In this document: positions 11,223-63,821 of the stretch, piece by piece | Position numbering within the stretch: the first letter of the stretch is position 1 | How the letters are laid out: each line of letters begins with the position of its first letter | Source: Rugalucina vietnamica | Taxonomy: Eukaryota > Mollusca > Bivalvia > Lucinida > Lucinidae | Direction: 5' to 3' | DNA: 64,000 nt | Assembly (NCBI GenBank): GCA_964017185.1 | Contig: OZ024870.1 | Coordinates: 60,924,812-60,988,811 of the forward strand | Position numbers and translations under genes: made by a program | Notes under the pieces: generated by a model | The model's input: only the letters and a program-made list of their open reading frames with translations | Database searches by the model: none | Told to the model about the DNA's origin: nothing

Positions 11223-13205
11223 ACCAGAGGACCAATGGTCCTGTAAACGCTCACCTGAGTCTGCTGCATATACCAATAAACATGTTTGAATATTATGGTA
11301 TTTAACCCCAGTGCAGGGGCAGATGAAGCCCTTGGGCCGTTTTCTTTTTTCAGAATAATCAATATTCTGTCCATTTGCCAATTTCTTGCTGGCTTTTCCC
11401 TTCAAATGACATTTTAACAGTTTTTGCCATTCAAATGCATGGGCAACCCATGTTGACCTTGCCATAAACTTGGTCAAGGTCATCACAGGGTCATGATTTA
11501 TATATACAATGTAGTACTATAGCCATGGATGCTTCACGCCAAGTTTCATTGAAGTCAATCTATTGATTTCAGAGAAGATATTTGAAGGGTTTTTACCATA
11601 TATGGGCATGGCGGCCATCTTGGTCATGTGACCTGATTATTAAATATATACATTGGTTCCCCCATCCTATAGATGCTTCACATAAAATTTGGCATCAATT
11701 GGCCAAGTGGTTTTAGAGAAGAAGATGTTTGAATATTATGGTAATATACATGTATATTGCCCCGGGGTGTGGGCATATGAGCCCTTAGGTCCATTTTTTG
11801 TTTCAGAATCATTAATATTTAGTCCTACTACCCATTTCCTGCAAGATTTTCACCTCAAATGACTTTTTAAAAGTTTTCCCCATTCCAATGCATTGGCGAC
11901 CTATGTTGACCTTGTCCTAAAATAGGTCAAGGTCACCACAGGGTCATGATTTATATATACAGTGTAGTACTTCAGCCATTGGTGCTTCATGCCAAGTTTC
12001 TTTGAAATCGGTCCACCAGATTCGGAGAAGAAGATTTTTGAAGGGTTTTTACCTTATATGGGCATGGCAGCCATCATGGTCATGTGAACTAGATAATTTA
12101 TATATACATTAATTCCCCCATTCCATAGATGCTTCACATAAAATTTGGCTTTGATTCGCCAAGCGGTTTCATAGGAGAAGATGTTTGAATATTATGGTAA
12201 TAAACATGTATACTGCCCCGGGGTGGGGGCAGATGATGAGTCCCTGGGATCCATTTTTTTTTCAGAATCATTAAGATTCAGTCCTACTGCCCATTTCCTG
12301 CAAGACTTTCACTTTAAATGACATTTTAAAAGTTTTCCCTATTCAAATGCATTGGCGACCTATGCTGACCTTGCCGTAAAAAAAGGTCAAGGTCATCACA
12401 GGGTCATGATTTATATACACATTGTAGTACTTGAGCCATCGATGCTTCATGCCAAGTTTCTTTGAAATCGATCCACCGGTTATGGAGAAGAAGATTTTTG
12501 AAGGGTTTTTACCATATATGGGCACTGCGGCCATCTTGGTCATGTGACCTGGATTATTTATATACACATTGATTACCCCTTCCTATTGATGCTTCACATA
12601 AAATTTGGCTTTGATTGGCCAACCGGTTTCAGAGGAGATGATGTTTGAATATTATGGTAGTATACATGTATATTGCCCCGGGGTGGGGGCATATGAGCCC
12701 CTGGGGTCCAATTTTTTTCAGAATCATTAATATTCAGTCCTACTGCCCATTTCCTGCAAGACTTTCACTTTAAATGACATTTTAAAAGTTTTCCCCATTC
12801 AAATGCATTGGCGACCTATGTTGACCTTGCCGTAAAATATGTCAAGGTCATCACAGGGTTATGATTTATATATACATTGTAGTGCTTGAGTCATCAATGC
12901 TTCATGTCAAGTTTCGTTGAAATCAGTCCACCAGTTCTGGAGAAGAAGATTTTTGAAGGGTTTTTACCATATATGGGCATGGTGGCCATCTCGGTCATGT
13001 GACCTGGATTTCTTATATACACATTGGTTCCCCCTTCCTATAGATGCTTCATATAAAATTTGGCTTTGGTTGGCCAAGCGGTTTCAGAGAAGAAGATCTT
13101 TGAAATTGTTGACGGACGGACGACGGACGGACGGACGGACGGACGGATGCCGGATCATGGCCATCCTATAAGCTCACCTTGTGAGCCTAACGGCTCAGGT
13201 GAGCT
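11223..13205 (+). mobile_element. Family A element 1 (pearl/Helentron-like)
   Basis: Starts ACCAGAGGACCAATGGTCC (small hairpin) and GCTCACCTGAG. Four ~455-bp tandem units follow (landmarks GTCAAGGTCATCACAGGGTC, ATGGCGGCCATCTTGGTCAT, TTGCCCCGGGGTGGGGGCA), then an ACGG/ACGACGG microsatellite (13105-13146), then a terminal stem-loop GCTCACCTTGTGAGC...GGCTCAGGTGAGCT. The 5' GCTCACCTGAG and 3' CTCAGGTGAGC are subterminal inverted repeats. No coding potential. Layout agrees with what is known of bivalve pearl and HINE/DINE-1-type non-autonomous elements (assignment is inference). Confidence 0.8.
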
Positions 13206-13206
13206 A

Positions 13207-14745
13207 ACCAGAGGACCAATGGTCCTGTAAACGCTCACCTGAGATCTGCTGCATATACCAATAAACATGTATGAATATTATGTATTTAATTCCAGTGCAG
13301 GGGCAGATGAAGCCCTTGGGCCATTTTCTTTTTTCTGAATCTTCAATATTCTGTCCATTTGCCAATTTCCTGCTAGCTTTTCCCTTCAAATGACATTTTA
13401 ACAGTTTTCCCAATTCAAATGCATAGGCAACCCATGTTGACCTTACCATAAACTTGGTCAAGGTCATCACAGGGTCATGATTTATATATACATTAAAGTA
13501 CTTTAGCCATCGATGCTTCACGCCAAGTTTCCTTGAAATCAGTCTATTGGTTTCAGAGAAGAAGATTTTTGATGGGTATTTACCATATATGGGCATGGCG
13601 GCCATCTTTGTCATGTGACCTAGATTATTTATATACACATTGATTCCCCTATTCTATACATGCTTCACATAAAATTTGGCTTTGATTGGCCAAGCGGTTT
13701 CAGAGGAGAAGACGTTTGAATATAGTGAAGGTATACATGTATATTGCCCCGGGGTGGGGGCACATGAGCCCCTGGGGTCCAATTTTTTTCAGAATCATTA
13801 ATATTCAGTCCTACTTCCCATTTCCTGCAAGACTTTCACTTTAAATTACATTTTAAAAGTTTTCCCCATTCAAATGCATTGGTGACCTATGTTGACCTTG
13901 CCGTAAAATAGGTCAAGGTCATCACAGGGTCATGATTTATATATACATTGTAGTGCTTCAGCCATCAATGCTTCATGCCAAGTTTTGTTGAAATCGGTCC
14001 ACCGGTTCTGGAGAAGAAGATTTTTGAAGGATTTTTACCATATATGGGCATGGCGGCCATCTTGGTCATGTGACCTGGATTTTTTTATATACATATTTGT
14101 TACCCCTTCCTATTGATGCTTCACATAAAATTTGGCTTTGATTGGCCAAGTGGTTTCAGAGGAGAAGACGTTTGAATATTATGGAGATATACATGTATAT
14201 TGCCCCGGGGTGGGGGCACATGAGCCCCTGGGGTCCAATTTTTTTCAGAATCATTAATATTCAGTCCTACTGCCCATTTCCTGCAAGACTTTCACTTCAA
14301 ATGACATTTTAAAAGTTTTCCCCATTCAAATGCATTGGCGACCTATGTTGACCTTGCCGTAAAATAGGTCAAGGTCATCACAGGGTCATGATTTATATAC
14401 ACATTGTAGTGCTTGAGCCATTAATGCTTCATGCCAAGTTTCGTTGAAATCGGTCCATCGGTTCTGGAGAAGAAGATTTTTGAAGGGTTTTTACCATATA
14501 TGGGCATGGCGGCCATCTTGGTCATGTGACCTGGATTATTTATATACACATTGGTTCCCCCTTCCCATAGATGCTTCATGTAAAATTTGGCTTTGATTGG
14601 CCAAGCTGTTTCAGAGAAGAAGATCTTTGAAAATGGTGGACGACGGACGGACGACGGACGACGGACGACGGACGGACGACGGACGGACGCCGGATCATGG
14701 CCATCCTATAAGCTCACCTTGTGAGCCTGACGGCTCAGGTGAGCT
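13207..14745 (+). mobile_element. Family A element 2, head-to-tail with element 1
   Basis: Begins ACCAGAGGACCAATGGTCC directly after the GAGCTAA end of element 1, with at most one base between them. Three ~456-bp units, an ACGG/ACGACGG microsatellite (14639-14692), and the same 3' stem-loop ending GGCTCAGGTGAGCT. Direct abutment of two copies suggests insertion of one into the terminus of the other or rolling-circle tandem transposition. Confidence 0.8.
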
Positions 14746-26848: not shown

Positions 26849-28849
26849 CCCTGGAGTCAATTTCTTTTTGAAAACATAAAACCTCAGTCCATTTGCCAAT
26901 TTACTGCAAATTTTGCCCTTCAAATGACATTTAAACAATTTTCCCCATTAAAATGCATGCGCGACCTATGTTGACCTTGCCGTAAAATAGGTCAAGGTCA
27001 TCCAAGGGTCATGATTTATATAAATTTTGTAGAGCTCCATTGCATGATGCTTCATGCCAAGTTTCAAAATCATAGGCCTTCTGGTTCTGGAGAAAAAGAT
27101 TTTTAAAGGTTTTTGCTATTTATAGCCATGGCAGCCATCTTGGTCATGTGACCTTGACCATTTATACATGCTTTCATTCCCACTTCCTAACAATGCTCCT
27201 CATAAAGTTTGGCTTTGATTGGCCAAGCAGTTTCTGAAAAGAAGATCTTTGAATATCACTGTAATATGTCATGTATATTGCCCCGGGGGTGGGGGCAGAC
27301 AGACCCCTGGGGTCCAAATTTTTTCAGAATCATCAATCTTATGTCCATTTGCCCATTTCCTGCAAGTTTTTCCCTACAAATGACATTTTAACAGTTTTCC
27401 CCATTCAAATGCATGAGCGACCTATGTTGACCTTGTCGTAAAATAGGTCAAGGTCATCCCAGGGTCATGATTTATATGAACTTTGTAGAGCTCCAGTCAC
27501 TGATGCTTCACACCAAGTTTCAAAATCATTGGCCTTCTGGTTCTGGAGAAGAAGATTTTTAAAGGTTTTTTCTATTTATAGCTATGGCGGCCATCTTGGT
27601 CATGTGACCTTGACCATTTATATAAACTTTCTTTCCCTCTTCCCAAGGATGCTTCATATGAAGTTTGGCTTTGATTGGCCAAGCGGTTTCAGGGGAGAAG
27701 ATGTTTTATTATTATGGAAATATACATGTATATATCCCCGGGGCAGGGGCAGACAACCCCCCAGGGGCTAAAATTTTCCATTAACATTAATCTTCTGTCC
27801 ATTTGCCTATTCCCAGTAAGTTTTACCCATTAAATAGCATTTTACCATTTTTTCCCATTCAAATGCATTGGCGACCTAAGTTGACCTTGCCGTAAAATAG
27901 GTCAAGGTCATCCTAGGGTCATGATTTATATAAACTATGATGGGGCCAAGTCCCCGATGCAACATACCAAGTTTTGTGGAAATCGGCCCACTGGTTCTGG
28001 AGAAGAAGATTTTTAAAGGTTTTTGCTATTTATAGCCATGGCCGCCATCTTGGTCATGTGACCTGGACCATTTATATAAACTTTTGTTCCCCCTCCCTAA
28101 GGATGCTCCACATGAAGTTTGGCTTTGATTGGCCAAGCGGTTTCAGAGGAGAAGATCTTTGAAATTGTGAACGACGGACGACGGACGGATGGACGGACGA
28201 CGGAGCATTGGTATACTATAAGCTCACCTGTGAGCCTTCGGCTCAGGTGAGCTAAAAATTCACGGTAAAGAAAGTTTCGAATTAGCTATAGCACACTCAC
28301 TCAAAAACCTTGATGACACCAATCTTGACGTCAATAGACATATCTGCAAGGCTAATGTAGCTTCAACAAGTTTAGCCCTATAGTGCCTTGTTACACACCA
28401 GCTGTAAGGCTATGTCACATAATCATGGCTAAAATTAATCAATCCATCTTCACATTTCGCTTGCACAAATATGACGAAGATTGATTGTTCTCTTGTAATA
28501 TCTAGTGAATTGATTGATTGAAAGACTGATTTTTAGTAAAGTTAAGGTAACTGAGTGGCCACCTATTGGGAAAATAGCTGCTCATTCGGCTTACGAAATG
28601 TTTTCATGGTATAAGTACCTGATTGTTAGTTTGTTTTTTTCCCACCTCGGTTTTCGGAGTGGGAATCTTTTTCTGATTGCGCCTTTTCCTGATCTTTGCC
28701 TACTTGTACCTTTTTAGAATTATATAATGTTGACCAAAAACACTGAAACCGTTTTAGAGCCAAAGTTCTGAAATCTAAGATGTGTTTTATATTTTTCAGA
28801 TTCATAAGCGTTTAGAAATCTCAGCCCTTTTTTTATGAGTGGAAATGAC

Positions 28850-38027: not shown

Positions 38028-41000
38028 TAAGAGCTGTCGCAGGACAGCGTAGCTCGCCTGACTTGTGCTTTGCCACTAAATCTATTAAAATCTATGACCC
38101 ATGACACTGACCTCAAGGTCACTTAGGTAGGTCGTGATAATACAGCATAAAACTTCAGACCAATATCTACCAACATGCAAAGTATCAACTAGATACATCA
38201 GCATGTTCAAGAGATATAGACTTCTAAAAACTTTAACCAAAAACTTTAACACAAAATTTCTAAGTCTATGACCTTGACCTCAAAGTCACCCAAGTGGGTT
38301 GTGATGGTACCGCATATAACTTCAGATCAATATCTACCAACATGCAAAGTACCAATTTGATCCATCAACATGTTCAAGAAATATAGACTTGTAAAAACTT
38401 TAACCAAAATCTTTAACACACAAAATTTCTAAGTCCGTGACCTTGACCTCAAGGTCACCCAGGTGGGTCGTGATGGTACTGCATAAACTTCAGATCAATA
38501 TCTACCAACATGCAAAGTATCAATTTGATCCATCAACATGTTAAAGAAACATAGACTTCTAAAAACTTTAACCAATAAGAGCTGTCGCAGGACAGCATGC
38601 TCGACTGCTTCTGACCTTTGTCAAACATAAGGCCAAACCCGACCAGTAACCCAAAGCATTATGCTCAGACATCTTTTTGCCTTGATGCAATAAGGCAAAA
38701 TCACTGAACCATGAAAGTTAACTATAACTACCTAAGATTTAAAGGTCTCACTCGTATTGTGAAAGAAGTGTGTTCATATACCAACTGAGTGCCAAGACAC
38801 AAGGCAAAATCACTGAACCGTGAAATAAGGTCACACTGACCTATAAGTATTTCAGGGTCAAAGGTCTGGTGAAACTTACTCATAATGTGAAAGAAATATG
38901 ATCATATACCCATTCAGTGTTGAGATATAAAGCAAAATCACTGAACCATGAAATTAGATCATAGTGACCTATAAGCATGTTTGGGTTAAAGGTCTGGTCA
39001 TACTCATTCATAATCAGAAAGAAGTATGAAAAAATACCAACTGAGTGTCGAGATATAAGGCAAAATCACTGAACCATGAAATTAGGTAACAGTGACCCAG
39101 GAATACTTTAAGGTCAAAGGTCTTGTCATACTCATACATATCGTGAAAGAAGTATGTTCATAAACCAATTGAGTGCCGAGATATAAAAGAAAATCACTGA
39201 ACCGTGAAATTAGGTCATATTGACCTAGGACTACTTTAGGGTCAAAGGTCTTGTCATACGCAAACATAGTGTGAAAGAACTTTGTTCATCAACCACTTAA
39301 GTGCCGAGATATAAGGCAAAGTCACTGAACCGTGAAATTAGGTCACAGTGACCTATAAGTATATTGGGGTCAAAGGTCTGGTCATACTCACTCATAATCT
39401 GAAAAAAGTATGAAAATATACTAATTGAGTGTCAAGATATAAGGCAAAATCACTGAACCGTGAAATTAGGTCACAGTGACCTAGGACTACTTCAGGGTCA
39501 AAGATCTTGTCATACGCAAACAAACTTTGAAAATAGTTTGTTCATAAACCATTTGAGTAACGAGATGTAAGGCAAAATCACTGAACCGTGAAATTAGGTC
39601 ACAGTGACCTATAAGTATATTGGGGTCAAAGGTCTGGTCATACTCACTCATAATCTGAAAAAAGTATGAAAATATACTAATTGAGTGTCAAGATATAAGG
39701 CAAAATCACTGAACCGTGAAATTAGGTCACAGTGACCTATAAGTATATTGGGGTCAAAGGCCTGGTCGTACTCACTCATAATCTGAAAGAAGTAAGAAAA
39801 TATACTAATTGAGTGTCAAGATATAAGGCAAAATCACTGAACCATGGAAAGTAGGTCAACCGACCCTTACCGTCATGACACACAAGTCAGTGTCACAAAG
39901 TCAAAAGATGAATGACCAACCATCTTCCTAAGTTGTTTCTATTAAGAAATAAAAAGAAAAAAATTTGGGGAGTTCTAGATTTTGACCTCTAGCCCCGCCC
40001 CCCCTGACTCCGATCCAGAGGTACGATGTCATGGAACCTCAAGTGTATGAAGTATGAATGCTTTATGATAAGTTGTTGTCAAGATATGGACTCTTTGTAA
40101 AAGTTACACAACAGTACATCTATTTTTTACAGTGTTCTAGTTTTTAACCTCCAGCCCCACCCCCCAGGCATGGACCCAGAGATCCGATGCCATGAAATGA
40201 AACTCAACCCTACAGGGTACCTATGGTCCGAGTATGAAAGCCCTCTGATAAAAAGTTTTCAAGATATAGACTTCTAGAATACTATATCACAGAAAAGCCA
40301 TTATTATTAATGGTGTTCTAGATTTTAACCTCTAGCCCCACCCCCTGGCATGGACCCAGAGATGTGATGCCATGGAATGAAAGCCGACCTTACAGGGTGT
40401 CAATGGCCCAAGCATCAATGCTTTCTGATGAGTGGTTGTCAAGATATGGACTTCTAGAAAACTTTAACACAAGAATTGCCATTTTTGAAGGTGTTCTAGA
40501 TTTTAACCTCCAGCGCCACCCCCTGGCCTGGACCCAGGGGCCCGATGCCATGGAATGAAAGCTAACCCTACAGGGTATCTATGGTCCAAGTATGAATGCT
40601 TTGTGATGAGTGGTTGTCAAGATATGGACTTCTAGAAAACTTTAACGCACGGGAACGCGCACGGGAACGGGAACGGGAACGGGAACGGGAACGTGGACGA
40701 CCGGGGTGACTGCAATAGCTCTATGCACTTCGTGCAGTCGAGCTAAAAACTTTAACACAAAATTTCTAAGTCCGTGACCTTGACCTCAAGGTCACCCAGG
40801 TGGGTCATGATGTTACAGCATAAAACTTCAGACCAAAATCTACCAACATGCAAAGTATGAACTTGATCCATCTACAACTTCAAGAGATATAGACTTCTAA
40901 AAACTTTAACCAAAATCTTTAACACACAAAATTTCTAAGTCCGTGACCTTGACCTCAAGGTCACCCAGGTGGGTCGTGATGGTACTGCATAAACTTCAGA

Positions 41001-41334
41001 TCAATATCTACCAACATGCAAAGTATCAACTTGATCCATCAACATGTTAAAGAAACATAGACTTCTAAAAACTTTAACCAAAATCTTTAACACAAAAGTC
41101 CGTGACCTTGACCTCAAGGTCAGCCAGGTGGGTCATGATGTTACAGCATAAAACTTCAGACCAATATCTACCAACATGCAAAGTATGAACTTGATCCATC
41201 TACAACTTCAAGAGATATAGACTTCTAAAAACTTTAACCAAAAACTTTAACATTTGAGCAACGCCGACGCTAAAGCCAACGCCGACGCTGGGGTGACTGC
41301 AATAGCTCTTCCTGTACTTTCGTACAGGCGAGCT
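38028..41334 (+). mobile_element. Family B element 1 (outer)
   Basis: 5' end TAAGAGCTGTCGCAGGACAG (hairpin CTGTC-GCAG-GACAG) with GTAGCTCGCCTGAC. Tandem ~167-bp units follow (CCGTGACCTTGACCTCAAGG, CCAACATGCAAAGTATCAAC), then a GCCGACGC-rich segment and a 3' stem-loop CCTGTACTTTCGTACAGGCG ending AGCT. It is interrupted by a second B element at 38576-40744. The ~23-bp ends echo family A in layout but not in sequence. Confidence 0.75.
38576..40744 (+). mobile_element. Family B element nested within B1
   Basis: 5' end TAAGAGCTGTCGCAGGACAG followed by CATGCTCGACTGC. Contents: ~130-bp tandem units (CACTGAACCGTGAAATTAGG, GGGGTCAAAGGTCTGGTC) and then ~190-bp units (GGTGTTCTAGATTTTAACCT, CAAGATATGGACTTCTAGAA). 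A (GGGAAC)n microsatellite (about 40655-40692) and the 3' stem-loop GCACTTCGTGC with AGTCGAGCT close it. Removing it restores the host repeat unit exactly, apart from an ambiguity of two A residues, so it inserted without a long target duplication. Confidence 0.78.
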
Positions 41335-41736
41335 AAAAAGGGTCTTCCATGACAGTGGTCATATTTTGTTATTGCTTAAAGAGCTTGTTAGCGCCCCAAG
41401 CAGCTTCTGCAACCAGTTTTTATAATCAGTTTAGTCATAGCCAAAGTTAAAGCAAACATTGATTTCCTATAGGTCATTTGGGATAGCACAAAAAGAATGT
41501 CAAAACTGATAGATTCGTACAGTTGAAAACGTTGTCCTCTACATATAGCCACATCTGTCATGCAAGGACAGTCAGTTTCTTATTAGTTACTGCATTTCCT
41601 GTGCAAGCCTCGTACAGGAAGTTTACCAGTTTTTACCCATTCTTTCACCTGTTGTTCTTCGTTCTTGAATATTTTAATAACAGGAAATTCAATCATTTCA
41701 AAATTTTCAATCAGATATATTACAAGTAGTATATAA

Positions 41737-42840
41737 TAAGAGCTGTTGCAGGACAGCGTAGCTCGCCTGACTTATGCTTTGCCACTAAATCTATTAAAAT
41801 CTAAGACCTATGACCTTGACCTCAAGGTCTCTCAGGTTCGCCATGATGGTACAGCTTAAAACCAGTACATGTATATACCAACATGATCCATCAACATATT
41901 CAAAAGATATAGACTTCAAAAACTTTAACCCAAAATATTTTTAACATAAAATTTCTAAGTCTGTGACCTTGACCTCAAAGTCACTCAGGTGGGCATGGTA
42001 CAGCATAAAACTTCAGACCAATATCTATCAATATGCAAAGTATCAGCTTAATCCATCTATATATTCAAGAGATACAGACTTACAAAAACTTTAACACAAA
42101 ATTTCTAAGTCCATGACCTTGACCTCAGGTCACTCAGGTGGGTCGTGATGGTAAAGCATAAAACTTCAGACTAATATCTATCAATATGCAAAGTATCAAC
42201 TTGATCCATCTATATATTCAAGAGATATAGACTTACAAAAACTTTAACCAAAAACTTTAACACAAAATTTCTAAGTCCGTGACCTTGACCTCAAAGTCAC
42301 TCAGGTGGTCCATGATGGAACAGCATAAAACTTCAGACCAATATCTATCAATATGCAAAGTATTAACTCGATCCATCAACATGTTCAAGAGATGTAGACT
42401 TACAAAAACTTTAACCAAAAACTTTAACACAAAATTTGTAAGTCCGTGACCTTGACCTCAAAGTCACTCAGGTGGTCCATGATGGAACAGCATAAAACTT
42501 CAGACCAATATCTATCAATATGCAAAGTATTAACTCGATCCATCAACATGTTCAAGAGATGTAGACTTACAAAAACTTTAACCAAAAACTTTAACACAAA
42601 ATTTGTAAGTCCGTGACCTTGACCTCAAGGTCACCCAGGCGGGTCATGATGGTACAGAATAAAAGTTCAGACCAATATCTACCAGCATGCAAAGTATCAA
42701 ATTAATCCATCAACATGTTCAAGAGATATAGCCTTATAAAAACTTTAACCAAAAACTTTAACATTTTGAGCAACGCCGACGCTAACGCCGACGCCGGGGT
42801 GACTGCAATAGCTCTTCCTGTACTTTCGTACAGGCGAGCT
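41737..42840 (+). mobile_element. Family B element 2
   Basis: 5' end TAAGAGCTGTTGCAGGACAG, about six ~165-bp units with GTGACCTTGACCTCAAAGTC, a GCCGACGC segment, and 3' CCTGTACTTTCGTACAGGCG then AGCT at 42840. It lies in the first copy of a tandem duplication described at 41720-47550. Confidence 0.78.
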
Positions 42841-43377: not shown

Positions 43378-45435
43378 TTATTTCTTGAATAGTGCTGATG
43401 TGTGTTGGTGAGTTCTTTGATGGCTGACTAGGCCAATTCTGGCTCTAAACTGTCGGTTGCAAGTAGAGGAAGTCAATGTCATAGAGTCTGCTGGTGGCAC
43501 ATTTGTTTTGGCTTTGCGCTCTCTTCGCTTTCTTTCAGCTTCACAGATTCTCTTCTTTTCATAGAGAGCTGCTCCTTTGTTGATGAGACCTTGCCACTTT
43601 GATCGCTCCTGTGCAGTCTGTTCCCAGGACCCCATTGGTATTTCGAAATCCTTCAGAGAGGCTTTGAGGGTGTCTTTGTAGCGTTTCTTCTGGCCACCTT
43701 GAGAGCGCTTTCCCTCCTGTAGTTCTCCATAGAAAACTTTCTTTGGAAGTCGTGCATCAGGCATTCTTATAACATGGCCAGTCCATCTTAGCTGTGCTAG
43801 CTTTAAGACTGTATGCATGCTTTGCATCCCTGCTTTCCTCAGGACCTCTGTGTCTGGAATCTTGTCCTGCCACTTGATTTTTAACACCTTTCTCAAACAG
43901 CTTAAGTGGAAATGGTTAAGTCTCTTTGCATGGCGTTGGTATACTGTCCAGGTCTCACATGCATACAAGAGGGTTGGCAGTACCACAGCCTTGTAGACTT
44001 TCAGCTTGGTGTCAAGCTTGATTCCATTTCGCTCCCAGACATTTGCACGGAGTCTTCCGAATGCCACACTAGCTTTTGCAATTCTGGCAGTGATCTCATC
44101 ATCAATATGCACTGCTCTGGAGAGAGTGCTTCCCAGGTAGGTGAACTTGTCAACAACTTTCAGTTTTTGCCCATTCACAGTGATGTTTGGTTCATTATAT
44201 GGTTTTCCGGGGGCTGGTTGGTGTACAACCTCTGTCTTTTTTGTGCTGATTGTGAGATCATAGTTATCACATGACTGTGAGACTTGATCCATGGCTCTTT
44301 GCATTTTTGCCTCTGTGTTGGCATTCTTATCCATATCATCTGCATAGAGGAGCTCATCTAGCACATCAGTCTGGACCTTAGTTTTGGCTTGCAACCTTCT
44401 GAGGTTGAATATGTTGCCATCAAAACGGTACCTGATTGGAAAACCAGTGTCACTGTCCTGAAAAGCATCCATAAGCATGGCAGAAAACATCATGCTGAAC
44501 AGTGTTGGTGCCAGAACACAGCCTTGTTTGACCCCATTTGTTACTTCAAATGGTTCAGAGAACTCTCCATCATTCTGCACACGTGCCTGCATGCCATCAT
44601 GAAACTGCCGCACCATAGCTATGAATCTGGGTGGACAGCCAAACTTGGCCATGATTTTCCAGAGTCCATCACGACTAACAGTGTCAAAAGCTTTGGTGAG
44701 GTCAACAAACGTCATGTATAGATCTACATTCTGTTCTTGGCATTTCTCCTGAAGCTGTCTTGCTGTGAAGATCATGTCTATTGTCCCTCTGTCTTTTCTG
44801 AATCCACATTGACTTTCTGGGATAAGTCCCGTCTGATCAAGATGAGCATTCAGACGATTCAACAGAATTTTTGCAAGTATCTTCCCAGCAATTGATAGGA
44901 GGGAGATGCCTCTGTGATTGTCACAGACTTGAGGATTTCCTTTCCGCTTGTATAGGTGGATTATGGATGCATCCTTAAATTCTTGTGGGATAGCCTCCTT
45001 CCTCCACATACAGTGAAACAACTCTGTCAGTTTCTCTGCCATGGGTAGCCCCCCAGCCTTGTAAACTTCGGCAGGAATTGCATCTGCACCTGGGGCTTTG
45101 CCAGATGATAGTTGTTGAACTGCTTTTCTTGTTTCCGTAACGGTAGGAAATTCATCTAACAGAACATTGCACTCTATCTGCGGAAGTCTGTCGATTGCAT
45201 CCTGATTGATGCTTGATGGTCGATTAAGCACACTATTGAAGTGTTCTGCCCACCTTTCCAAGATAGCTTCTTTATCTGTGAGAAGAGTGTTTCCATCTGC
45301 ACTGAGCAATGTGGTGGCTCCAGAACTCTTTGGACCATAAATGGTTTTCAGTGCATCATGAAATTTCTTCATGTCCTTTCTATCCGCAAAATACTGAATT
45401 TCTTCTGTTTTCTTCCTCAGCCAGGAATCTTGCAT
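43378..45435 (-). CDS. LINE reverse transcriptase (partial ORF2)
   Basis: 685 residues open from the first Met; the frame stays open upstream to a stop near 45605. Reverse transcriptase motifs are clear: KAPGADAIPAEVYK near residue 115, GISLLSIAGKI near 177, motif A FVDLTKAFDTVSRDGLW near 243, motif B NGVKQGCVLAPTLF near 300, and catalytic LLYADDMD with YADD at 364-367. A C-terminal segment (CNRQFRARIGLVSHQRTH) resembles the zinc finger common in this LINE group, but the first cysteine is Ser. The N-terminal endonuclease is not contiguous; its start lies inverted at 45725-46039. The intact reverse transcriptase suggests a fairly recent insertion, but this copy cannot make full ORF2. Confidence 0.9.
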   Translation of the reverse strand: MQDSWLRKKTEEIQYFADRKDMKKFHDALKTIYGPKSSGATTLLSADGNTLLTDKEAILERWAEHFNSVLNRPSSINQDAIDRLPQIECNVLLDEFPTVTETRKAVQQLSSGKAPGADAIPAEVYKAGGLPMAEKLTELFHCMWRKEAIPQEFKDASIIHLYKRKGNPQVCDNHRGISLLSIAGKILAKILLNRLNAHLDQTGLIPESQCGFRKDRGTIDMIFTARQLQEKCQEQNVDLYMTFVDLTKAFDTVSRDGLWKIMAKFGCPPRFIAMVRQFHDGMQARVQNDGEFSEPFEVTNGVKQGCVLAPTLFSMMFSAMLMDAFQDSDTGFPIRYRFDGNIFNLRRLQAKTKVQTDVLDELLYADDMDKNANTEAKMQRAMDQVSQSCDNYDLTISTKKTEVVHQPAPGKPYNEPNITVNGQKLKVVDKFTYLGSTLSRAVHIDDEITARIAKASVAFGRLRANVWERNGIKLDTKLKVYKAVVLPTLLYACETWTVYQRHAKRLNHFHLSCLRKVLKIKWQDKIPDTEVLRKAGMQSMHTVLKLAQLRWTGHVIRMPDARLPKKVFYGELQEGKRSQGGQKKRYKDTLKASLKDFEIPMGSWEQTAQERSKWQGLINKGAALYEKKRICEAERKRRERKAKTNVPPADSMTLTSSTCNRQFRARIGLVSHQRTHQHTSALFKK

Positions 45436-46287: not shown

Positions 46288-47261
46288 CAAGAACTCCGCG
46301 GAGGTCGTTATCGCACCTGCATCGGGCAAAATACACATTACTATGCAAGGTTTCACACTCACAGCTATCACTGATGCAGAGAAAACCAAACTTCGACTTA
46401 AAAATTAACAAAGTCAATGGACCGTGAAATATAGGTCAAGGTCAGTGGGTCAAGGTGCGTGCTTGAAGGGTATGTTAAGGACAATTACTATGCAAGGTTT
46501 CACACTCACAGCTATCACTGATACAGAGAAAACGGAACTTCGACGTAAAAATTAACAAAGTCAATGGACCTTGAAATATAGGTCAAGGTCAGCGGGTCAA
46601 GGTGCGTGCTTGAAGGGTAAGTCAAGGACAATTACTATGCAAGGTTTCACCATCCTAGCTATCACTGATGCAGAGAAAACGGAACTTCGACGTAAAAATT
46701 AACAAAGTCAATGGACCATGAAATATAGGTCAAGGGCACCGGGTCAAGGTGCGTGCTTGAAGGGTATGTCAAGGACAACTACTATGCAAGGTTTCACAAT
46801 CCTAGCTATCACTGATGCAGAGAAAACCAAACTTCGACGTAAAAATTAACAAACCAAACTTCGACGTAAAAATTAACAAAGTCAATGGACCGTAAAATAT
46901 AGGTCAAGGTCAGCGGGTCAAGGTGTGTGCTTGAAGGGTATGTCAAGGACAATTACTATGCAAGGTTTCACACTCACAGCTATCAATGATACAGAGAAAA
47001 CGGAACTTCGACGTAAAAATTAACAAAGTCAATGGACCGTGAAATATAGGTCAAGGGCACCGGGTCAAGATGCGTGCTTGAAGGGTATGTCAAGGACAAT
47101 TACTATGCAAGGTTTCACAATCCTAGCTATCACTTATGTAGAGAAAACCAAACTTCGACGTAAATGTTGACGGACGGACGGACGAACGAACGAACGAACG
47201 AACGGACGGACGGACAGAAATTTGGACTCCTATATCGCACCCTGCTATAAGCAGGTGCGAT
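46288..47261 (+). mobile_element. Family C element (pearl/Helentron-like)
   Basis: 5' end CAAGAACTCCGCGGAGGTCG (hairpin CTCCGCGGAG) with TTATCGCACCTGC. Tandem ~146-bp units follow (ACTATGCAAGGTTTCACACT, AATATAGGTCAAGGTCAGCG), then an ACGG/ACGA microsatellite (about 47169-47215) and 3' GCACCCTGCTATAAGCAGGT then GCGAT. The paralogous empty site in the first duplicate (about 43045) reads straight through AATCATAAAAAAATTGTAG, confirming both ends and the lack of a long target duplication. Confidence 0.8.
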
Positions 47262-55473: not shown

Positions 55474-56312
55474 TTAGTCCCGAGCTCTCACAAGAGAAGT
55501 AAATTTAGACACACAATCATCTGACATTTCAGCAGAGGAGATCAGAGAATCAGGGAGTTCATTCCAATCTCTAATGGTCTGGGGGAAGAAACTGTGTAAA
55601 TAGGCATTTGTACTTGCTGAAGGTATCTGAAATGCCAAGGAGTGTTGATTCCTACAACGCCTATTTTTGGGGATAAGGTCATCCGTGGGTATTTTTGCTC
55701 TCCCTTTTAGACCTTTGTAAAGTAATATAATTCTATTATCCTTCCTTCTTTTCTGCAGGGATTCCCATTTTAGTTTTTTAAGGATGCCAGTCATACTACC
55801 TTTTTCATATGTATAGTTCCTAGTTACAAACCTAGCCGCACGCTTTTGCACCTTCTCCAAATCATCTATCAAACCTTCATAATGAGGGTCCCAAACTGAG
55901 CTACCATATTCAAGAATAGGTCTCACCAGACCTTTATAGGCAGCTTCTCTCACATCTTGGGGGCAAGAAAACAGATTTCGTCTCAAAAAACCAAGGGTCC
56001 TATTGGCTTTGGTACACACATTGCTGATGTGAGTATTCCATTTTAAATCCTTAGTTATTGTTACACCAAGATATTTGATACTCTCAACATTTTCCAACAC
56101 AGTACCCTCAAGCTTGTAAGAAGCCTGAATTTTACTAGTACGTTTATTTGTCAGCTGCATCATGTTGCACTTGACAGGTTGAAATCTCATACCCCATTTC
56201 CTGGCCCAACTACCTAATCGATCAATATCCTTCTGAAGTTTCACTGTATCCTCCACATTCTTAATTTCACGATAACAAACACAATCATCAGCAAAGAGTC
56301 TGATTTCCGATT
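55474..56312 (-). pseudogene. CR1-like reverse transcriptase, C-terminal part
   Basis: About 280 residues on the minus strand. FADD catalytic motif near the start, then DIDRLGSWARKWGMRFQPVK, IKYLGVTITKDLKWNTHI (thumb), LVRPILEYGSSVWDPH, KVQKRAARFVTRNY and a C-terminal FPQTIRDWNELPDSL. The block is full length to its stop at 55474 with no internal stop, so the inserting element is young relative to the LINE or the pair is recent. The nearby Met codons are incidental; this is the middle-to-end of ORF2. Confidence 0.88.
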
Positions 56313-58358
56313 CAATATCTGGGAACAAGACAACTCACCGACAAGACAATTCATCGACACGGTTTTTGAGACAATTCACCGACAGATTTTGAGACAATTC
56401 ACCGACACTTCTGAAGACAATTCACCGACACTTTTAATCAAAGTTAATGACTTGTAACTGATGATCTTGATTGGCGATCATACATTCCCCATTAATGCAA
56501 AGACAGTTTAATCACGTTTTCACCGACAGATTAAAGTTTTTTAAGGCAATTTATCGGCCCATAAAAATTTGAAAACAATTTTAAGACGATTCACCGACAG
56601 ACAGAATTAAGATTTGATAGAAAATATTTTCAGACAGTCCACCTGCATTTTAACTTTTAAAAGACTATTTTATGATATTTCATCACCAGATTTGAATTAT
56701 TTTGAAAGACAATTTTAAGACTTTCATCGCAATATAACATTTTGGAGGACATATTTAAGACCGTGAATTCACTGACAGATTTAAGATTTTAGAGACTATT
56801 TTTTTAACAGTTCACCGTCATTTTTAACTATTGAAAGGCACCTTTAAGACGATTTACTGACAGATTTAGATTTCAAAGACAATTCACCGACAGTTTTAAG
56901 ATTTAAAGATTTATGAGAATTTAGAAACATTCATTGACAAAGTTAAAATTTTAAAGACTTTCGGATAAAAAAAATTCACACTTCATACCGACAGTTTTAA
57001 GATGTAAAAGATTTATAAGAATTTAAAAACAAAAATTTGGAAGACTTTCATATAGGAATTTAAATGCAATTTAAAGACAATTTGCGGACAGATTTAAGCT
57101 TGTATTTACAAGTGTTGACATTATAGAAACTTCACTGACAGGTCTCTAATCTAATAAATTACTTTAAAGTGTCGTTACAGTAAACTCGCCGACACGATTT
57201 CTGAGACAATTCACCGGCAGATTTTCATAAATACATATGAAGGCATCTGACCAAAATTTAAAGTGTCATAAAATTAAACTCACCGACACGATTTTTCAGA
57301 CAATTCATCGACAGATTTTGATATTAAAATGCACGTGAAGGCATCTGATCACAATTTGTCAGTGAATTGTCTCAAAAATCGTGTCGGTGAATTTTAGTCA
57401 GATACCTTCATATGTATTTCAAGATCAAAATCTGTCGGTGAATTGTCTCAAAAATACATGTAATGTCAGTGAATTTTGGTCAGATGCCTTCATATGTATT
57501 TTAATATCAAAATCTGTCGGTGAATTGTCTTATAAATCGTGTCAGTGAATTTCGGTCAGATGCCTCCATATGTACATGTATTTCATACATGTGATGAGTT
57601 GAAAAGGAGCTTCAGGGAGATTTTTCTTTCATTTCAGGGAGGTTTTTGAAAAATGTATAGAATATATAGGAAACTTCCAGATCCATTTCAGGGAGATTTT
57701 GAATTTTGATTGAAAAATAGATATATTTTAGAAGAATTTTGATCAATTTTACGGCTCATTTCCTGGAGTCTCCCTGATGATGAGGGAGGTATCACATGTA
57801 TGGTATTTTAATATCAAAATCTGTCGGTGAATTGTCTCAAAAATCATGTTGGTGAGTTGTCTTGAGATATTTTATATTATTAAGCGACACTTATTAAGGT
57901 TCATTCAAGTCACCTCATATTAATCAAATCTGTACTAACTAATAATCGGTCACAGGCTAGTAATGACCATTAATTGCTCATGATTACCGATGATAATCAA
58001 CAGTTACAAGTCATTAACTTTGAACAAAGGTGTCGGTGAATTGTCTTCAGAAGTGTCGGTGAATCGTCTCAAAATCTGTCGGTGAATTGTCTCAAAAACC
58101 GTGTCGGTGAGTTGTCTTGTCGGCAATATACCGTTAAACTCCCCGCGGGGACCTTTTGTTTTTGACTTTTGAAAAAAATATTCTCTCTATGATTCATTGG
58201 GTTCTGAGTTGATCAGGGTTACTGAGACGCTTGCATCCATCGACTTTTTCCGTAAATACGTAAATGTACGAGAATTAATTTCCCGCTTTTTTTCAATTTG
58301 TTAACAGCGCGCACGTGAAAAGAAAAAGAAAACTAGAAATGCGTGTTTGTAAAACACT

Positions 58359-60156
58359 ATGCCCCCAACTGTATGCTTGTCCCTAAACTGGCAGCTTGTA
58401 TGATTCATTATTTCATTCGAATTAAGTGAAATTTAATTTCCTAAAAAAGCTGTTCGGTTGCCTTTTTTGCCTCCATCCAGAAACAGAATGTAAGCCTTTG
58501 CATACAAGTTAGAAATGGAGTAAAAATTTCAAAATTGAGTTATTTTGTCAAAATTTGATGGAAAGTCCTCAAAAAGTAATCAGGTGATCTTCTTCTCAGC
58601 CCCAACCAGTATACCAAATATGAAGGCTCTAACTTAAATACTTTTTCAGATATCTTGCACACAAGATTTTCAAATTTTATTTTAAAAGGGCCATAACTCC
58701 AAAAAATGCATACCTTGAACATGAAAATAAAAATGCCTGTCAACTATTTTTTCATGAGGAATTTGTATATGAAATTTCAAAACCCTAACATTCACTGTTC
58801 AAAAGTTTCAAATTTCACCGATAAGTGGAAAAATCAATCAAAATTTCAAAATTCTGTATTTTTGTAAAAATTTGACGGAAAATTCTCAAAAGTTAATCAG
58901 GTCATCTACTCCTCAGCCCCAACAAGTGTACCAAATATGAAGGCTCTAGCTTAAATACTTTTTGAGATATCTTGCACACAAGATTTTCAAATTTTGTTTT
59001 CAAAGGGACATAACTCAAAAAAGGGGCATAACTTGGCCATACAAAAAATACGGGTCAACTATTTTATCATGAGGAATGTGTATATGAAATTTCAAAACCC
59101 TAGCATTCACCATTCAAACGTTTCAAATTTTACCAAAAAGTGGAAAAATCAATCAAAATTTCAAAATTCCGTATTTTTGTAAACATTTGACAAAAAGTTC
59201 TCAAAAAATAATCAGGTCATCTACTTCTCAGCCCCAACAAGTGTGCCAAATATGAAGGCTCTAGCTCAAATACTTTTTGAGATATCTTGCACACAATATT
59301 TTCAAATTTTGTTTTCAAAGGGACATTACTCAGAAAAGGGGCATAACTTGGCCATACAAAAAAATACGGGTCAACTATTTTATCATGAGGAATGTGTATA
59401 TGAAATTTCAAAACCCTAGCATTCACCTTTCAAAAGTTTCAAATTTCACGGAAAAGTGGAAAAATCAATCAAAATTTCAAAATTCCGTATTTTTGTCAAA
59501 ATTTGACGGAAAGTTCACAAAAGTTGATCAGGTCATCTACTTCTCAGCCCCAACAAGTGTACTAAATATGAAGGCTCTAGCTCAAATACTTTTTGAGATA
59601 TCTTGCACACAATATTTTCAAATTTTGTTTTCAAAGGGACATAACTCAGAAAAGGGGCATAACTTGGCCATACAAAAAAATACGGGTCAACTATTTTATC
59701 ATGAGGAATGTGTATATGAAATTTCAAAACCCTAGCATTCACCTTTCAAAAGTTTCAAATTTCACCGAAAAGTGGAAAAATCAATCAAAATTTCAAAATT
59801 CCGTATTTTTGTCAAAATTTGACGGAAAGTTCTCAAAAGTTGATCAGGTAATCTACTCATCATCCCCAACCAGTATACCAAATATGAAGGCTCTAGCTCA
59901 AATACTTTTGGAGATATCTTGCACACAAGATTTTCAAATTTTGTTTTCAAAGGGAAATAACTCAGAAAAGGGGCATAACTCGGACAAGAAAAAAAATACG
60001 GGTCAACTATTTTTTCATGAGGAATACACACATGAAATTTCAAATCCCTAACATTCACCATTCAAAAACAAGGCGTTACACACGCACACACAGACAGACA
60101 GACAGACAAGCCCAAACCAATATGCCCTTCCAACTTTTTCAAAGTTGGGGGCATAA
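58359..60156. repeat. 316-bp satellite within small inverted termini
   Basis: Five tandem units, about 316 bp each for the last four, from about 58540 to 60061. Repeated landmarks: AATCAGGTCATCTAC, CTTGCACACAAGATTTTCAA, TATGAAATTTCAAAACCCTA. The block is enclosed by inverted TGCCCCCAACT (58362) and AGTTGGGGGCA (60143-60153), each next to TA, so it is probably its own TA-flanked mobile unit within the inner element. A short CACA/GACA microsatellite (60077-60108) follows the last unit. Long open frames here (such as 152 codons at 59277 and 59593) are by-products of the period. Confidence 0.8.
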
Positions 60157-60414
60157 AAAAGTGACCGTAAATTTAAACTTGTCGTCGACTGTTTCATGTA
60201 GATATATGTTTGCGTTGACGATGAGCTGTATACGCTTAAGTACAAATAAAATTTAGCGTTATAATTATTAATGCCACGCCTAATACATCCATTTTATTCA
60301 TATGTATTGTGTAACAGTAAACCTGTGACATATATCTACTCCAATCGTCCGAGATCTATAACTAATAAGACGAACAAATCGGGGAACAAATATAAACTAT
60401 GACAATTGCTTACG

Positions 60415-60789
60415 TCAGTGTCGCATTGCAGCATGCACATAATGCCTAACTGTCCCGTCAATCCATTCGTATCTTCTATTGGTAACATTCCACGCGTACA
60501 GATTATAGTTTGTATTTGGAAAAACAGTTTTTAACAAAACTTCGAAATGTCTGTACGCACTAGCGTCCCTTCCCAAATCTTGAAGTCGAGCCCACTCCAA
60601 GAAAATGTCCGGGTTCAGACCATTCACATACACAAAAGCCGAAATTCGAAGCCTATCCCAATGTTTCAAATGCTTAGTCCAAAAAAGGCGCCTAGTGGAA
60701 TATGGCCATTGATTTGCTGGTCCTATTATATCTTGAATCGTGCTCCAAGTTTCAAAAATTATCCTGTTGTTATTTCTACGTTCAGCCAT
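60415..60789 (-). CDS. Unrecognised 124-residue protein of the inner TIR element
   Basis: Intact minus-strand ORF. I choose ATG at 60789-60787 because a splice acceptor-like tract (TTTTTACTTTCCAG) ends 11 bases before it; an open frame from 60870 would add 27 codons through that acceptor. The protein starts MAERRNNNRIIFETWSTIQD. It is rich in Trp, Arg and aromatic residues (RRLFWTKHLKHWDRLRISAF, VNGLNPDIFLEWARLQ) and ends YEWIDGTVRHYVHAAMRH. It looks like a small folded helical protein without signal peptide or membrane segment. I do not recognise the family. It is the only convincing non-repeat ORF inside the inner element, so it may be element-encoded or captured. A donor-like CGTAAGC directly follows the stop. 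Confidence 0.5.
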   Translation of the reverse strand: MAERRNNNRIIFETWSTIQDIIGPANQWPYSTRRLFWTKHLKHWDRLRISAFVYVNGLNPDIFLEWARLQDLGRDASAYRHFEVLLKTVFPNTNYNLYAWNVTNRRYEWIDGTVRHYVHAAMRH

Positions 60790-61064
60790 TATCGAATATA
60801 ACTGGAAAGTAAAAACTGGTTTTAGCAAGGGACAGTAAACTTCTTGTATATATGAGTCATATATATCCATTGTTGTTTATTGATGTCCCTTGACAAAGGT
60901 AATGCACCGAAACTAGTCGGGAAATAAAGAAAATCAAATAATTCACTCTTGGAGTTTGATCTCTTTTACCATTTATATATGCAAATATTCCAATATATAT
61001 ATTCGTCTATAAAACGTTCAAATGAAAGGCGTGGTTGAAATATCCGTGCCGTATTTAGAAGGGG

Positions 61065-61345
61065 TTTGTTATGGAATGGTCTATAAAGACCGATGCTTTT
61101 ACGGAATAAACCTCAACCGTATACAATATTTTAATTTATGTACTATAAACAATATTTCAATCATGCGATTTATTCCGTTGTAGCCAAAACACAGACAGAA
61201 ACAGTCTCAGAAAAACATACCATATTTGTTATGGAATGGTCTATAAAGACCGACGCTCTTACGGAATAAACCTCAACCGTATACAATCTTAAACTTTTTG
61301 TAATATAAAAAATATAACAAGCGTGCGATTTATTCCGTTTAACAT
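61065..61345. repeat. 163-bp direct repeat (two copies)
   Basis: TTGTTATGGAATGGTCTATA then AAGACCGA-GCT-TTACGGAATAAACC occurs at about 61066 and 61229. Each copy is followed by ACCGTATACAAT and later by an inverted TTTATTCCG, so each unit can fold on CGGAATAAA/TTTATTCCG. It sits just before the palindromic array within the inner element. Confidence 0.75.
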
Positions 61346-61387
61346 AAAACATACACGGAATGAAAGTCAGAAATAAATCTTTTTTGT

Positions 61388-62947
61388 GGAATAGTGCCAT
61401 GCATAATAAGTTTCTCTTTGAAAGAAATCGTCGCTATATATATACTACCGTTATCCTCCCCGGGGAGGTTAACGGTACTATATATATATATACTACCGTT
61501 ATCCTCCCCGGGGAGGTTAACGGTACTATATATACTACCGTCATCCCCCCACCTCTATCTTCGTAAAATGATGCATTGTCAGTGATCGAGATTACGTTTA
61601 AAACACTTCCCCCAAAAGCTTTCCGAGCACCGTTTTCTCTGAAATTACTGCCCCCCAAGAAAACCCTCTTCCCGGGGAATCTTCCCCTTGCCATGCATAT
61701 TAAGTTTCTTTTAGAAGATTTCGTCGCTATATATATACTACCGTTATCCCCCCCGGGGGGGATAACGGTAGTATATATATACAGACGAATCTTTGAAAAA
61801 CAATCCTATAATGCCATGCATATTAAGTTTGTTTTAGAAGAATTTGTCGCTATATATATACTACCGTTATCCCCCCCGGGGGGGATAACGGTAGTATATA
61901 TATACAGACGAATCTTTCAAAAACAATCTTATAATGCCTTGCAAAGGGAAGATTTCCCGGGAAGAGGGTTTTCTTGGGGGGCAGTAATTTCAGAGAAAAC
62001 GGGGCTCGGAAAGCTTTTGGGGGAAGTGTTTTAAACGTAATCTCGATCACTGACAATGCATCATTTTATGAAAATAGAGGTGGGGGGATGACGGTACTAT
62101 ATATAGTACCGTTATCCTCCCCGGGGAGGTTAACGGTACTATATATATATATACTACCGTTATCCTCCCCGGGGAGGTTAACGGTACTATATATACTACC
62201 GTCATCCCCCCACCTCTATCTTCGTAAAATGATGCATTGTCAGTGATCGAGATTACGTTTAAAACACTTCCCCCAAAAGCTTTCCGAGCCCCGTTTTCTC
62301 TGAAATTACTGCCCCCCAAGAAAACCCTCTTCCCGGGGAATCTTCCCCTTGCCATGCATATTAAGTTTCTTTTAGAAGATTTCGTCGCTATATATATACT
62401 ACCGTTATCCCCCCCGGGGGGGATAACGGTAGTATATATATACAGACGAATCTTTGAAAAACAATCCTATAATGCCATGCATATTAAGTTTGTTTTAGAA
62501 GAATTCGTCGCTATATATATACTACCGTTATCCCCCCCCGGGGGGGATAACGGTAGTATATATATACAGACGAATCTTTCAAAAACAATCTTATAATGCC
62601 TTGCAAAGGGAAGATTTCCCGGGAAGAGGGTTTTCTTGGGGGGCAGTAATTTCAGAGAAAACGGGGCTCGGAAAGCTTTTGGGGGAAGTGTTTTAAACGT
62701 AATCTCGATCACTGACAATGCATCATTTTATGAAAATAGAGGTGGGGGGATGACGGTACTATATATAGTACCGTTATCCTCCCCGGGGAGGATGACGGTA
62801 GTATATGTATATATAGTACCGTTAACCTCCCCGGGGAGGATAACGGTAGTATATGTATATATAGTACCGTTAACCTCCCCGGGGGGGATAACGGTAGTAT
62901 ATATATAGCGACGATTTCTTTCAAAGAGAAACTTAATATGCATGGCA
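61388..62947. repeat. Giant foldback array of GC-centred palindromes
   Basis: The block begins GCCATGCATAATAAGTTTCT and ends with the reverse complement (AGAAACTTAATATGCATGGC). Inside are about a dozen palindromes of the type TACCGTTATCCTCCCCGGGG followed by AGGTTAACGGTA, or all-C/G centred variants, separated by ATATAT. Between them lies a longer inverted pair (about 61545-61690 against about 61935-62090). The whole arrangement is repeated at ~661 bp (the motif TTCGTAAAATGATGCATTGT recurs at 61560 and 62221). All reading frames through it (with IYILPLSSPG-like peptides) come from the palindromes. The core resembles the element's own termini (ACCGTTAAACTCCCCGCGGGG). Confidence 0.85.
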
Positions 62948-63304
62948 TAGTACCGTTATCCTCCCCGGGGAGTTTATCGGTATTATAGGAAAGACAACTG
63001 TTTTGATATAAATAAATTTGAACTTTATATCGTAATATTTGGTTAAAATTATGCTTTTGTGGACTTTTGAGCTGTCTGTTTCCATATCTGATATTTCTTT
63101 TTTTGACCAAGAAATTTACATAAATTCATGCGCGACGCATGCGCAGAAAATTTGCAAGCGTCTGAGTGATCATGATTATGTTCTTCCATCTTGTAAAAGT
63201 CATTTTTCAAAACATAAATTGAGCCCCAAAACAAAAGGCCCCCGCGGGGAGTTTAACGGTATATTGCCGTCTTGTCGGTGAATTGTCTTGATTCCCAATA
63301 TCTG

Positions 63305-63440
63305 AGGTGATATCATTTATATGCAACGAAAACAACAATGGGCCAAGAACGGTGCCCTGTGGGACACCAGATACAACAGGAGCCCAGTCTGATTTAACGC
63401 CATTAACCACAACTCTTTGTTGTCTATACACAGGTACAAA
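63305..63440 (-). pseudogene. CR1-like reverse transcriptase, upstream part
   Basis: Contains VVVNGVKSDWAPVVSGVPQG and TVLGPLLFSLHINDITSDI, reverse transcriptase motif B (VPQGTVLGPLLF). It ends where the foldback element with a 9-bp target duplication (CAATATCTG on the plus strand) was inserted. Recognisable reverse transcriptase sequence fades upstream of about 63440, so the LINE is 5'-truncated there. Confidence 0.8.
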
Positions 63441-63821
63441 CAATACGTCACAAACCACGTGGTCTATAAAATACAGGTAAGTCATGTGACTATCACATGA
63501 CCTTTTCTCACTTCCGGGTGGCAAAAAAGCGACCTCAGGTCAATGAATGTGTAATGAACTGTAATGTTTTGATGTATAAAAGTGTAAAATCATGTCGAAA
63601 TATTACTCATTCATAACAAATTAATTTCCAAATATGTTTGTTCATTAATTGATGCTTGTTTCTAATTTAGTATTATAAGTTTTTAGCGCTTCTTCACGTG
63701 CGGAATTAGAAAATATGAATTTAAAGGGTTTGCATCTCGGTGAAAAGATAAAGTATTCCCACGGTATAAATCATAAAGCAACATTTGTTCAATAATTTCC
63801 GTATTTGTTAAGCCGTCATTT

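Follow-up and report, generated by a model that had tools for sequence, protein, structure and literature searches.

A foldback array of palindromes resembling the terminal inverted repeats inside Merlin transposons of Rugalucina vietnamica

Merlin elements of the lucinid bivalve Rugalucina vietnamica contain an internal array of GC-centred palindromes that share a core with the terminal inverted repeats (TIRs) of the same element and change along with them across four families, family 4 weakly. Judged from the DNA letters, the array is probably a cis-acting cluster of putative sites for a TIR-reading protein, located in the gene-control region of a two-gene Merlin. The array was analysed in a 64,000-nucleotide stretch of contig OZ024870.1 (the window) and in the genome (1.09 Gb, 47 contigs), in which repeat counts may be lower bounds.

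Element structure and classification

The element in the window spans 58122-63268 and is flanked by an 8-bp target-site duplication (TSD). Its TIRs are 41 bp long with one mismatch, not 38 bp as in an earlier account made from the window letters without database searches (the sequence-only reading). Apart from the array, its features are:

58114..58121, left 8-bp TSD, GTCTTGTC
58122..58162, + strand, left TIR, 41 bp, GGCAATATACCGTTAAACTCCCCGCGGGGACCTTTTGTTTT, 40/41 identical to the right TIR
58523..60067, 316-bp tandem repeat, 4.9 copies, within the element and separate from the palindrome array
60415..60789, - strand, ORF-A, 124 amino acids, conserved in sister Merlin families
61065..61378, 160-bp repeat, two copies, left of the array
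63111..63112, deletion junction, at which copies L015 and L019 have about 2.8 kb including the transposase gene
63228..63268, - strand, right TIR, 41 bp
63269..63276, right 8-bp TSD, GTCTTGTC

Assignment to the Merlin superfamily was based on a DDE_Tnp_IS1595 transposase, a TIR of 24-462 bp starting GG and a TSD of 8 or 9 bp. The domain is absent from the window copy itself. Because L015 (8496 bp) and L019 (6968 bp) contain an open 680-codon frame with DDE_Tnp_IS1595 (PF12762, E = 2.4e-20), the element, which also has a 41-bp TIR starting GG and an 8-bp TSD, belongs, by domain match, TIR and TSD, to a Merlin family, of which the window copy is, by the same comparison, a deletion derivative. 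Transposases of sister families gave 48-57% by tblastn, and the family-1 elements fit the Merlin features stated in the available part of PMC8101967 (TIRs starting GG, 8-bp TSD). hAT, P and Mutator had been considered early and were dropped once the Merlin-type transposase turned up. A viral or prokaryotic origin was also rejected, with 0 matches in viral contigs and one in a prokaryote contig (a Streptomyces record), fewer than a rough chance estimate; for P0001, none was confirmed in viral contigs. No Rfam RNA matched at the gathering threshold.

ORF-A of family 1 is 59-77% identical to that of three sister families, with pS of 0.75-0.94 versus pN of 0.16-0.28; pS and pN are given because dS was saturated and not computable in 7 of 8 gene comparisons. 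The genome contained 39 matches to ORF-A and 69 to the transposase. Relatives of ORF-A besides the family-1 copies matched at 41-79%, and ORF-A accompanies the Merlin transposase in several families. Nothing matched ORF-A in Pfam or NCBIfam, a profile of four ORF-A pieces gave no match in the PDB, and the best phmmer hit (E = 0.025) was taken as noise; the mean pLDDT of its structure model was 38.3.

The Merlin element is nested in another insertion with a 9-bp duplication, CAATATCTG, which is in turn nested in a LINE. The surrounding insertion (56322-58121 and 63277-63295) is foldback-like, with inverted arms of 144 nt (91%) and numerous copies of a GACAATTCACCGACA sub-repeat facing either way (20 matches in the window at ≤2 mismatches). 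The LINE reverse-transcriptase frame (55474-56321 and 63305-63539) is split by the nested insertions, and its rejoined flanks give 360 open codons. Elsewhere in the window, a fully open 685-codon reverse-transcriptase frame was found at 43378-45435 (RVT_1, E = 6e-34) and long tandem arrays at 11316-14631, 26872-28163, 38099-42763 and 46337-47164, with periods of about 455, 128-178 and 147 bp, some of them followed by GACG-type microsatellites.

Structure of the array

The sequence-only reading had located at 61388-62947 an array of about a dozen palindromes with AT spacers, arranged in a larger inverted repeat and repeated at about 661 bp. The location and each of these features were confirmed, and the true span is slightly wider: 61395-62990 holds 11 complete GC-centred palindromes of the type ACCGTTATCCTCCCC.GGGGAGGATAACGGT and one end site, joined by (AT)n, with the following parts:

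61395..62946, foldback array, ordered (PP B CC B') twice and finally PPP
Centres of the palindromes at about 61461, 61509, 61754, 61877, 62122, 62170, 62415, 62539, 62784, 62832 and 62880
61531..61691, + strand, module B, first copy
61938..62100, - strand, module B, inverted copy, 154/160 versus the first copy
62192..62352, + strand, module B of 661-bp unit 2
62600..62762, - strand, module B of 661-bp unit 2, inverted
62947..62990, end site, with one arm like the array palindromes and one like the TIR (GGGGAGTTTATCGGTAT)

The larger inverted arms measure 399 nt (89%) and 378 nt (90%), the two array edges mirror each other with 141-nt arms (98%), and the 661-bp repeat is identical at 658 of 661 aligned positions, with one gap. 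Near-palindromes, scanned at a threshold of ≥13 of 15 arm positions, had 21 centres in the window: 15 lay in the array, of which 10 were GC-centred and 5 fell at inter-palindrome AT spacers, and 6 lay elsewhere; ten equal-length Markov sequences yielded 0 centres in nine cases and 1 in one. The proposed likeness of the palindrome core to the termini was borne out by a search with a 21-bp TIR core (≤3 mismatches), which returned nine matches, namely the two TIRs and seven in the array, while 100 shuffles returned 0. Subterminal likeness beyond the TIR was not significant, 19 of 300 shuffles being equally good.

Family 1 across the genome

The palindrome half-site had 235 genome matches and the TIR core 42 (≤2 mismatches), with 0 for the reversed control of each. 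The TIR matches fell at 22 places (the window and 21 loci), of which 20 are complete elements and 2 are lone ends that lack palindromes. Since 233 of the 235 half-sites lie inside the 20 complete TIR-bounded elements, with 2 unplaced, the palindromes are not mainly outside, and the array belongs to the surrounding element, as had been proposed. Nineteen elements (the window copy and L010-L027) make up family 1, and the twentieth, L030, has diverged and contains 2 half-site matches. Frames inside L030 (2934-3467 and 6227-7348), with a GIY-YIG match at E = 0.00022, below the Pfam cut-off, are presumably Penelope-like.

Among the 20 elements, the TSD is a perfect 8 bp in 16 and 7/8 in L025, and none was found for L011, L014 and L030; GGCAAT is present at both ends of 19, one end of L014 being TTTAAT. 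Left of the array, over 355-700 aligned bases, the other 18 family-1 copies are 97.5-99.7% identical to L019, and by this measure family 1 is therefore young. The core layout PP-B-P-B' (PP-B-P(P)-B') occurs in all 19 family-1 copies, which makes a one-locus assembly artefact unlikely, and PPP followed by B' occurs in 18 of 19, the exception being the window copy. The letters permit an independent insertion of the array (61395-62946, with a 3-bp TAG duplication), a candidate set aside given the array in 19/19 family-1 copies and module-B cassettes in families 2-4. Palindrome number varies from 6 to 13 between near-identical copies, and these repeat-number changes may well be neutral.

With L019 as reference, the transposase is absent from 17 of 19 family-1 copies, 12 of which lack it through one deletion and 5 through another, and most of ORF-A is missing from 9 of 19. 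The array region is kept in 19/19 copies, 17/17 transposase-less derivatives included, and both ends are kept in 19/19, save for the last three bases of L014. Array retention amounts to some three deletion events and is by itself weak evidence, because positions outside the array (L019 1-300, 801-900 and 2101-2800) are also kept in 19/19 and the copies descend from few founders.

Related families

Besides family 1, four further Merlin groups were read at selected loci:

Family 2 (L041, L042), 5059-bp element, identical 30-bp TIRs, duplication TTGAATTC, ORF-A, array of 731-bp units
Family 3 (L043), transposase and ORF-A, a single TIR, array built of 410-bp units and continuing past the end of the sequence read
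Family 4 (L047; relatives L044, L050), 3308-bp element, duplication CAAATCTT, divergent transposase and ORF-A with sites between them
Fifth group (L048, L049; transposase 42%), 252-bp tandem array

No transposase was found in family 2 (L041, L042). In the part of the fifth group that was read, neither such palindromes nor a TIR were seen, and this group was left out of the TIR-by-array test. The more distant Merlin at L049:898-3212 has, upstream of the transposase, its 252-bp tandem array, which contains ACAAAYTTTCCCCTAT sub-repeats; L050:2347-3548 is a family-4 copy with extra DNA at one palindromic site and inverted arms of 353 nt (92%).

In families 1-4 the genes point away from the array. 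The sites of family 4 occupy the space between the two divergent genes, starting 237 bp from the ATG of the transposase and ending 153 bp from the ORF-A ATG; for the array of L019 the distances are about 0.5 kb to the ATG of the transposase and 2 kb to the ORF-A ATG, each ATG in these distances being the first in frame and not a mapped start. This position upstream of the genes and the Merlin identity were both missed by the sequence-only reading, which held in its account of element membership and likeness to the ends and was thus supported in part.

Module B identity is 84-86% in family 2, 73-74% in family 3, 76-78% in family 4 (with L050) and 80-86% in L030. Between families, BLAST-aligned pieces of module B differ by 11-17% with gaps excluded, and synonymous differences in ORF-A and the transposase amount to 0.75-0.94 per site. 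Several gaps have lengths not in threes, so module B is unlikely to be coding. In families 1, 2 and 4 its copies lie in opposite orientations on either side of central palindromes, and in L030 (3/3) and the part of family 3 that was read (4/4) they all point one way. From these alignments, module B is a conserved non-coding cassette inside the arrays.

Covariation of ends and arrays

The cores compared were:

Family 1, TIR ACCGTTAAACTCCCC-GC-GGGGA; array ACCGTTATCCTCCCC.GGGGA
Family 2, TIR ACCGTTAAATTGCC-AGCT-GGCA; array ACCGTTATCCTGCC(T/A)GGCA
Family 3, TIR TCTTCTGACCC-GC-GGGTCAGA; array TCTTC(T/G)GACCCGCG, spacer, GCGGGTC
Family 4, TCCTATTATTGAAGCC-GT-GGCACA in one TIR, the second being less similar; array TCCT(A/G)TTATTTGTGCC.GGCACA

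When TIR bases 9-34 were compared with the arrays of the four families, the diagonal was highest in every row and column. The true TIR-array pairing scored 107, the best of 24 (next, 83), where four families set a permutation floor of 1/24 and both the TIR cores and the single array copy representing each family were hand-picked, the family 3 copy being closer to its TIR than most. TIR-core matches (≤3 mismatches) in the array and elsewhere in the element numbered 24 and 0 in family 1, 15 and 1 in family 2, 12 and 0 in family 3, and 1 and 0 in family 4; shuffled cores gave 0 to 0.5 matches per core inside the elements. The family 4 match is weak (one site at 3 mismatches, three at 4), with imperfect TIRs, and family 3 is represented by one TIR and half-sites with a spacer of about 27-30 bases. 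That related families carry their own matching array versions suggests a single protein that recognises ends and array alike, and among the options listed in the sequence-only reading this covariation over four families favours transposase-binding sites.

Interpretation

If the array is a cluster of sites for the TIR reader, its inverted sites would share their recognition core with the TIRs of the element, at the place from which the genes are read outwards. The TIR reader, for which a transposase dimer is the likeliest candidate and ORF-A together with the transposase the other, would also bind the array, and the bound protein would control its own genes or would gate or titrate the transposition complex. 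Here we infer protein binding, the identity of the binder and the sign of the effect (repression, activation or titration). Counted against this explanation are the 2 kb between array and ORF-A in family 1 and a fifth-group array without such palindromes.

A narrower form, possible and put forward tentatively, is that the array serves as a dose sensor: a TIR-core operator array would control transposase and ORF-A, the TIR reader would gate its own genes while being titrated by every copy, including gene-less ones, and TIR and array specificity would be forced to change together as families arise.

Growth of the palindromes as a selfish satellite, by template switching and unequal exchange, with the repeats as passengers without function, seems unlikely. 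It would suit the variation in palindrome number (6-13) between near-identical copies, the likeness of B to B' (96-97%) and of the 661-bp units (99.5%), and the common occurrence of internal tandem repeats in Merlin (available part of PMC8101967); however, on this reading one would expect neither a match between array core and TIR family by family nor a module B that differs by 11-17% alongside near-saturated synonymous sites.

It is improbable that the array is transcribed into a long hairpin RNA yielding small RNAs that silence the element or its relatives. One strand of 61388-62400 does fold into a single long stem (-636.9 kcal/mol, a value that stands without a shuffle reference at that length), but the array is upstream of genes that read away from it, and TIR cores are not required by such a role.

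Stacking or conversion of end fragments, in which TIR pieces are copied inwards in each family, is slightly less probable again. This option of the sequence-only reading would account for the core likeness in every family and for the TIR-like arm of the end site at 62947-62990. It is disfavoured because the arrays of families 1 and 2 share ATCC (for AAAC/AAAT) and a shorter centre, features missing from both TIRs, which argues against simple recopying of the array from the ends; module B, absent at the ends, is moreover part of the cassette in four families.

Least probable is a cruciform DNA structure for replication, excision or chromatin in which symmetry, not sequence, counts: arm positions are symmetric in 2527 of 2699 cases over 180 family-1 palindromes and cores differ between families yet stay symmetric, but symmetry alone makes no demand for TIR letters, and families 1 and 2 both retain an outer ACCGTTA.

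Comparison with known elements

The piggyBac superfamily targets TTAA, and hAT elements (Ac, Tol2, Hermes) carry subterminal repeats, in which a short end motif bound by the transposase recurs many times. The hAT repeats adjoin the ends, whereas the present sites sit between genes and are dyad-symmetric. The foldback elements Galileo and Tm1 likewise have large inverted repeats built of sub-repeats, but there the long inverted repeats are the ends; the long terminal inverted repeats of the foldback type are lacking here, the ends being 41-bp TIRs and the foldback internal. piggyBat, of the piggyBac superfamily, resembles the present elements in having palindrome-containing transposase sites beyond the tip, an internal one of which restrains activity (PMC11707139); it belongs to another superfamily and has three sites near one end, whereas about ten palindromes form an internal foldback array beside genes here.

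Internal tandem repeats in Merlin are already known, in one case with an inverted copy, according to the available part of PMC8101967. There, the Merlin Sy.m_F1 of Symbiodinium microadriaticum likewise has a DDE_Tnp_IS1595 transposase, TIRs starting GG and an 8-bp TSD, and its 5′ tandem repeat, duplicated in opposite orientation, is akin to the present array. In contrast, that part describes no likeness between repeat and TIR and no joint change across families, and "palindrom" is absent from the main text; the present Merlins also differ from Sy.m_F1 in their second conserved gene. Curated mollusc Merlins average 1635 bp (PMC10294476, available part), and the present elements are 3.3-8.5 kb. 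Neither a TIR-like internal array nor a joint change of TIR and array in Merlin was found in the literature searched, which covered subscription papers in part.

Self-limitation of DNA transposons is an old question, and a shift in end recognition at family splits is seldom visible. In this genome, the Merlin elements carry a second conserved gene, ORF-A, and several families have ends and an internal array with matching cores, together with a non-coding cassette that has persisted as synonymous sites saturated. Whether such elements regulate themselves through internal sites resembling their ends thereby becomes directly testable, with matched sets of transposases and sites provided.
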